A program made the translations under genes and the position numbers. A stretch of 64,000 bases of DNA, from the NCBI GenBank assembly GCA_902590505.1, contig CACIWZ010000003.1, positions 62,001-126,000 on the forward strand. The letters are read 5' to 3'. The stretch is from an uncultured Pelagibacteraceae bacterium. GTDB taxonomy: Bacteria; Pseudomonadota; Alphaproteobacteria; Pelagibacterales; Pelagibacteraceae. Positions 4,720 through 5,601 of this stretch are shown here, in pieces. Each line of letters starts with the position of its first letter. Within the stretch, counting starts at the first letter, position 1. The notes beneath the pieces are model-generated. The model was given only the letters and a program-made list of their open reading frames with translations. It was not told the origin of the DNA and did no database searches.

Positions 4720-4747
4720 TTGACATGAATTTTTAATTAATTAATGT
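4720..4747 (+). promoter_or_regulatory. Candidate sigma70 promoter for the polybasic peptide gene
   Basis: A perfect -35 hexamer TTGACA at 4720-4725 is followed after 16 bases by TAATGT (4742-4747); TGTAAT three bases further on is an alternative -10. It lies in the 211-base AT-rich gap after fadD and about 50 bases before the small ORF at 4799. In so AT-rich a background the -35 is more telling than the -10. Confidence 0.5.
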
Positions 4748-4757
4748 AATTATTAAC

Positions 4758-4780
4758 AAACGAATCATTAAGATTTGTTT
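4758..4780 (+). promoter_or_regulatory. Leader hairpin just upstream of the polybasic peptide RBS
   Basis: AAACGAATC (4758-4766) can pair with GATTTGTTT (4772-4780) around a five-base loop, giving a nine-pair stem with one G-U. It ends about ten bases before the AAGGGAG ribosome binding site of the ORF at 4799. It would lie in the 5' untranslated region and could affect translation or transcript stability. The function is inferred. Confidence 0.4.
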
Positions 4781-4798
4781 ACTAACAAGGGAGAAAAG

Positions 4799-4870
4799 AT
4801 GGCTAAAAGAAGAAAAAAAGCTAAAAAGAAAACTAAAAAGAAAGCAAAAAAGAGAAGAAGAAGAAGATAG
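4799..4870 (+). CDS. 23-residue polybasic (Lys/Arg) peptide
   Basis: ATG at 4799 opens MAKRRKKAKKKTKKKAKK followed by five Arg and TAG. Of 23 residues all but Met, three Ala and one Thr are Lys or Arg. It is too short for the ORF track, but the expression signals are the best in the window: a TTGACA promoter, an AAGGGAG site 8 bases before the ATG, and a strong intrinsic terminator starting 17 bases after the stop. Such a peptide should bind nucleic acid, either as a histone-H1-tail-like DNA compactor or as a tiny ribosome-associated protein comparable in size and charge to bTHX or eL41. I do not claim homology to either. It is convergent with CarD, itself led by a Lys-rich tail. Confidence 0.7.
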   Translation: MAKRRKKAKKKTKKKAKKRRRRR

Positions 4871-4887
4871 TTTTCTCTTTAACTAAG

Positions 4888-4932
4888 CGCCCTTTTTATA
4901 ATTTTTATAATGTAAAGAGGGCGTTTTTTTTA
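4888..4932 (+). terminator. Intrinsic terminator after the polybasic peptide
   Basis: CGCCCTTTTTA (4888-4898) pairs with TAAAGAGGGCG (4913-4923) over 11 pairs with one G-U, followed by a run of eight T. It ends transcription of the small basic peptide gene and touches the stop codon of the convergent CarD gene at 4930. The minus-strand side lacks a T tract, so it looks one-directional. Confidence 0.9.
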
Positions 4933-5601
4933 TGCGTCTTCTGAAATTTTAACTCTTCCTAAAGCTTTATCCATTTTTTTTTGTACTTCTTCAGGACTAA
5001 CTTTCAATACTGCTTCAAATTCAGATTTTAATCTTTCATAAGCCTTTTCAAATAACTGTCTCTCAGAATAAGACTGATCAGCTATAATGTCAGTATTTTT
5101 GTTAAGATCTTTTACAACCTCAGCTAATTCATAAATTTTTCCTGAATTTATTTTTTGATCATATTCTTGAGCACGTCTACTCCACATTGTTCTTTTAATT
5201 TTTGGTTTAGTTTTTAAAATTGATACACATTTATTAATCTGATTTATTGTAGCTATTGGTCTTAATTTAGACTGCTGATTTATTGGAACGGTAAGAGTTA
5301 ATTTCTCTTTCTCAACTAAAATTTTATAAAATTGAATATCAATTTCACCTATATTGGCTTTTTCGATCGCAGTAATTTTTCCAACACCATGTTTAGGATA
5401 AACAACAAAATCTTTCAAATTATATACTCTTTTTTCTGTAGGTTGTTTTTTAATTTTTTTTATTTCGGGTTTTTCATCTGGTCCAGAAATTGAAGTTTTT
5501 TTTTCGTTAGTTTTTAAAATTGATTTAGACTTAACTTTAGATTTACTTTTTTTTAAGATCTTTAAGTTTTTTATTTTTTTTGTTTTTTTCTTTTTAGGCA
5601 T
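4930..5601 (-). CDS. carD: CarD/CdnL-family RNA polymerase-binding regulator with Lys-rich tail
   Basis: A 223-residue protein. Residues from about 61 form the CarD/TRCF RNA-polymerase interaction domain (YNLKDFVVYPKHGVGKITAI, then LTVPINQQSKLRPI). The helical C-terminal DNA-binding part follows (MWSRRAQEYDQKINSGKIYELAEVV, then YSERQLFEKAYERLKSEF). CarD stabilises the open promoter complex, especially at rRNA and growth-related promoters. The first ~60 residues are an extension of mostly Lys, Ser and Thr (MPKKKKTKKIKNLKILKK and onward), absent from short family members and probably disordered. It is last in a minus-strand set with helicase, TerB-like protein and FdxA; the gap to fdxA is 5 bases. 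Confidence 0.9.
   Translation of the reverse strand: MPKKKKTKKIKNLKILKKSKSKVKSKSILKTNEKKTSISGPDEKPEIKKIKKQPTEKRVYNLKDFVVYPKHGVGKITAIEKANIGEIDIQFYKILVEKEKLTLTVPINQQSKLRPIATINQINKCVSILKTKPKIKRTMWSRRAQEYDQKINSGKIYELAEVVKDLNKNTDIIADQSYSERQLFEKAYERLKSEFEAVLKVSPEEVQKKMDKALGRVKISEDA

Follow-up and report, generated by a model that had tools for sequence, protein, structure and literature searches.

A conserved carD-linked gene of the Pelagibacterales that appears to encode a minimal histone-H1-like peptide

Protamines are tiny, strongly basic peptides presumed to serve as counter-ions of DNA, and the ribosomal proteins bTHX and eL41 are likewise very basic, at about 25 residues. Lysine-rich proteins that resemble histone H1 are already known in bacteria. 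Chlamydial Hc2 (165 to 237 residues) and Bordetella BpH1 (182 to 206 residues) are rich in lysine, arginine and alanine, built from repeats and variable in length, while the KPAA repeats in the C-terminal domains of AlgP and PhaF are H1-tail-like and DNA binding. More generally, H1-like repeat peptides of other bacteria bind DNA and shift in length through changes in repeat number (PMC9239181, PMC2848022).

Here we describe a gene in the SAR11 bacteria (Pelagibacterales) whose predicted product, at 20 to 25 residues in the genus studied, is far shorter than Hc2 or BpH1. Its longer orthologues in a sister family carry Ala-Pro-Lys repeats similar to those of these two proteins; however, there is no detectable profile match, the gene neighborhood differs, and Hc2 is developmental whereas the SAR11 cassette looks constitutive. 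In AlgP and PhaF the repeats are tails of larger proteins, AlgP having in addition a helical N-terminal domain, whereas in SAR11 the tail is the whole protein and its binding is predicted only. Unlike the SAR11 peptide, protamines are arginine-rich, eukaryotic proteins of sperm; the likeness does not imply homology.

The window, that is, the whole stretch of DNA analyzed, comprises 64,000 nucleotides from an uncultured Pelagibacteraceae bacterium (assembly GCA_902590505.1, contig CACIWZ010000003.1). The cassette as a whole occupies positions 4720 to 4931 and is convergent with a carD-family gene. Its features, in window coordinates, are as follows.

4720..4725, + strand: -35-like box TTGACA (direct read of the sequence; conservation)
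4758..4780, + strand: leader hairpin AAACGAATC-ATTAA-GATTTGTTT (fold; conservation)
4787..4793, + strand: ribosome-binding site AAGGGAG (direct read; conservation)
4799..4870, + strand: ORF of 23 residues, MAKRRKKAKKKTKKKAKKRRRRR, H1-tail/protamine-like (ATG at 4799-4801, TAG at 4868-4870)
4885..4931, + strand: intrinsic terminator, stem 4885-4926 followed by a T tract, up to the carD stop codon (fold)
4930..5601, - strand: carD-family gene, convergent neighbor and synteny anchor, outside the cassette (Pfam PF21095, PF02559)

A preliminary description had listed TTGACA, a hairpin, AAGGGAG, ATG, 23 codons and a strong terminator, and had called the peptide almost only lysine and arginine. All of these parts were recovered when the sequence was read again, and 18 of the 23 residues (78%) are lysine or arginine, giving a charge of +18; the intact peptide would have a mass of 2.97 kDa. 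The weak point is the promoter: a simple scan found no TATAAT-like -10 box, and the putative promoter is called from the -35 box, its fixed distance of 38 to 42 nt to the hairpin, and conservation. The leader hairpin comprises 9 bp (-7.2 kcal/mol, z -3.5). A simple terminator rule, which allowed loops no larger than 8, gave no match at 4885-4931, but folding reveals the terminator clearly (-19.7 kcal/mol, z -5.1). Its T tract runs up to the carD stop codon, so that the two genes converge and overlap at their 3' ends. For comparison, 40 sequences of 64 kb and like composition were simulated with Markov models of order 1 and order 3, and none of their ORFs of 20 residues or more went above 52% lysine plus arginine.

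The neighboring RNA-polymerase regulator CarD (4930-5601, - strand, as well as L121, L141, L159 and L166) has a lysine-rich N-terminal tail of about 60 to 120 residues that is probably unfolded and that is H1-like in genus g4. Both CarD and the convergent peptide contain polycationic stretches.

Close relatives in public records are single-cell genomes and metagenome assemblies of Pelagibacteraceae, Candidatus Pelagibacter among them. Of 101 genomes of the same genus, about three quarters gave a clear match to the block (E < 1e-8). In 11 family genera and three sister-family genera, the ORF lies beside carD wherever the locus is fully assembled; the remaining loci without it are contig ends. 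The frame is intact in every one of the 91 distinct same-genus ORFs, which span 20 to 25 codons and differ by whole codons. The ORF of L138 starts with GTG instead of ATG. The lone frameshift among the fetched loci lies in L118 (G106, another genus), where an A run close to the ORF end is one A longer and shifts the last codons; this may be a sequencing error or true decay, and the ORF is intact in the congeners L119 and L301.

Nine same-genus genomes yielded no carD. For five of them (G178, G006, G010, G245 and G065) the match to the block's neighbor gene stops inside that gene, in at least some cases at a contig end, so that an assembly gap is likely; in the other four (G118, G061, G198 and G016) the gene neighboring the block was not clearly found either. 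Many contigs, mostly from single cells, stop within the 200-base block (G045, G046, G051, G056, G057, G064, G074, G080, G086, G090, G091, G237 and others), presumably because its sequence is of low complexity and rich in GAA and A, and such breaks may hide the gene from annotation. Inverted duplicates of the carD region or its neighbor were seen in G129:C6, G245:C11 and CACNAY010000020.1 (L220, L224) and are probably amplification chimeras of single-cell genomes.

Evidence for coding came from inferred changes per site, counted with the CarD tree as a yardstick. Within the genus, the peptide ORF accumulated 1.3, 3.3 and 5.9 changes per site at codon positions 1, 2 and 3, compared to 3.4, 1.2 and 20.0 for CarD. 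The 1,998 residues that follow the initial methionine in the 91 distinct ORFs are K, R, A and T, with one G only, and single-base changes in these ORFs would lead to a residue outside the K/R/A/T/G set in 63% of cases and to a stop in 9%. At both ends of the ORF, in the first codons and in the final arginines, several third positions are unusually constrained, which points to some selection on the RNA besides the protein. The retained frame, the restricted composition and the conserved cassette are all features of sequence, and taken together they indicate that the block is a real protein gene. This agrees with the self-contained, functional gene originally proposed, for which relatives were to be searched for codons that change under a constant Lys/Arg composition and for frame disruptions: position 3 changes fastest, and every distinct same-genus copy keeps its frame.

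The H1 likeness becomes apparent in more distant genera. At the same spot in g5, g7, g9 and g12, the ORF encodes 20 to 58 residues, mostly 29 to 58, with alanine and proline (e.g., MAKKRKKAAKKKVAKKPAKRKVAKKKPAAKKRKPAAKKKAPAKKRKPAKKKTAKKRKR). In the sister family it encodes 40 to 91 residues (e.g., MEELKVIFAKARKKAKKKAAPKKKRKAAKRKPAKKK), lies about 64 nt from carD, and is preceded by the same ACGAATCA hairpin. The sister-family proteins (51% Lys, 25% Ala, 7% Pro) contain AAPKKK/AAKRKPAKKK repeats of the textbook histone-H1-tail type (e.g., AAPKKKKRKAAKRKPAKKK). These low-complexity Lys/Ala/Pro repeats stand against a 23-mer in the window that has no proline and has lost most of its alanine. Length changes with the number of repeats without loss of the frame, from 20 to 58 residues in the family and from 40 to 91 in the sister family, and on the CarD tree it runs in order from the sister family (long) through a middle group to the short clade of g1 to g4, g6, g8 and g13; in g5 the ORF became short once more, independently. 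Reduction from long to short would be the simpler reading. Among the other alphaproteobacteria examined, none showed an H1-like gene adjacent to carD; given that no outgroup has the gene beside carD, the origin is unrooted and the direction of length change is one that we infer.

Pfam and NCBIfam returned no family for the 23-mer or for four longer f1 orthologues, although composition filters suppress such matches, and the PDB held no relative (best E 0.57). A class-wide search with an 85-residue relative as the query gave no match, but the same search missed a known orthologue in G109, so this blank is uninformative. The likeness to H1 is drawn from composition, repeats and synteny, and these suggest that the 23-mer represents the short extreme of a lysine-rich protein resembling H1.

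The leader is even more uniform than the ORF interior. Every one of the order's 157 distinct leaders contains TTGAC and CGAATC together with a ribosome site of the GGAG type, 150 have the full TTGACA, and the spacing from TTGAC to CGAATC is 38 to 42 nt in 156; within the genus, TTGACA, CGAATC and GGGAG show zero inferred changes. Given the fixed distance from TTGACA, the mRNA probably begins at the first hairpin or close to it. CGAATC is paired with GATTYG in most lineages, and in g5, g7, g9 and g12 a shifted hairpin, TCACTTA/TAAGTGA, comes after the invariant CGAATC stretch. In this hairpin, as seen in a small set whose loops were hand-trimmed, both sides have changed in four of eight pairs and standard pairs far exceed those of slid versions. 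Both mRNA stabilization and translational control are plausible roles for the 5' hairpin. This genome contains a single instance of the leader motif plus TTGAC box, which at that strictness rules out the leader as a shared regulon signal, and Rfam searches over the block, at the gathering threshold and at E values up to 5, returned sub-threshold chance matches only.

We also noted an element, CTCCAAAC (CCTCT in the sister family), that follows the first hairpin and is predicted to pair with the ribosome-binding site (L116, L117, L120, L131-L135, L139 and L282-L294). It is absent from the window's genus and looks like a translational switch that has since been lost.

From these features we propose, with a probability of roughly 0.6, that the gene encodes a minimal histone-H1-like (protamine-like) peptide that binds nucleic acid, mainly chromosomal DNA. 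Such a peptide would be produced in quantity, would have no fold, and would bind through its charge, neutralizing DNA and contributing, together with HU/IHF-type proteins, to nucleoid packing in a very small cell. This genome has three HU/IHF-family genes, so the peptide would add to these proteins and not replace them. In the streamlined genera, the H1 tail would have been pared to little beyond charge, and the hairpin near the mRNA start would probably stabilize the message or tune its translation. The DNA binding and repeat-number length changes documented elsewhere (PMC9239181, PMC2848022) make DNA binding a reasonable, not a proven, expectation here. Charge alone does not discriminate between DNA and RNA, and the peptide possibly binds RNA as well.

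The main rival to DNA packing is that the peptide binds RNA or the ribosome, stabilizing rRNA or acting as an RNA chaperone in the manner of bTHX and eL41, with an autoregulatory mRNA leader as is often seen for ribosomal proteins. The universal, constitutive-looking cassette and the structured, highly conserved leader would suit such a role, as would the CTCC or CCTCT stretch able to pair with the ribosome site in g7, g9, g12 and the sister family, and H1-like Hc2 is itself a strong RNA binder (PMC2848022). However, lengths of 20 to 91 residues and the free exchange of lysine, arginine and alanine are ill-suited to a snug ribosomal site, and no aromatic or other specific residue is conserved, whereas bTHX and eL41 have a fixed length and specific residues. 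We regard this role as unlikely, if still deserving of serious weight. The preliminary description had put forward both nucleoid compaction and an RNA- or ribosome-binding role, with bTHX and eL41 as points of comparison; the H1-tail-like orthologues lend support to the former, and their range of lengths and divergence into AAPKKK repeats leave the comparison with bTHX and eL41 unsupported.

It is improbable that the locus is mainly a small or dual-function RNA, bounded by the 5' hairpin and the terminator, with the peptide secondary. The leader is more conserved than the ORF interior, synonymous sites are constrained in the first and last codons, and the hairpin covaries, all of which would fit an RNA; the frame, by contrast, is kept in 91 of 91 copies, an ATG (rarely GTG) follows a consensus ribosome site, K/R/A/T/G residues alone are used despite indels, and the ORF grows into H1 repeats in relatives. 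Still more improbable is a polyphosphate organizer modeled on Pseudomonas AlgP, whose H1-like tail accompanies a role in spacing polyphosphate granules (PMC9239181). The window's genome does encode a polyphosphate kinase, but among 21 relatives only 7 have this enzyme, as do only 3 of the 9 that are near-complete, and it is missing from G264 (99% complete) and G265 (98%), both of which have the H1-like gene. That near-complete relatives keep the gene without the kinase disfavors a dedicated polyphosphate role. (The kinase, PF02503, is patchy in the order as a whole, at 7 of 21 genomes, e.g., G000:C2:81098-81616.) Finally, a chance frame in AT-rich, purine-rich DNA or an attenuator leader peptide, to which the low-complexity sequence and 30% GC genome might seem to lend themselves, is refuted by the conservation, by the simulations, and by the next downstream genes, carD and ferredoxin, which lie on the opposite strand and leave nothing to attenuate.

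Returning to the H1-like, DNA-packing peptide, we suggest tentatively, as a bolder proposal that may well prove wrong, that this Lys/Arg protein of 20 to 25 residues is a universal and abundant chromatin-like component of SAR11 and, of the proteins dedicated to nucleoid packing in free-living bacteria, the smallest known. Its synthesis would be controlled via the conserved leader hairpin ACGAATCA, with the peptide itself perhaps acting as the regulator.

Few bacterial groups in the sea rival SAR11 in abundance, and hardly any of the DNA in its genomes is considered unexplained. In the searchable literature on SAR11 RNAs, transcription start site maps and proteomes, we found no mention of this peptide gene, which is apparently unannotated; nor did that literature yield a stand-alone H1-like gene of 20 to 25 residues kept throughout a dominant marine order. 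Trypsin would cut the peptide into fragments of one to three residues, leaving standard proteomics blind to it. An order-wide gene would thus have escaped annotation, being below the length that gene callers accept and of a composition that search filters mask. The series from 91 to 20 residues behind one conserved leader would amount to a natural experiment on the minimal sufficient H1 tail, and the sufficiency of a short tail is directly testable with synthetic peptides.
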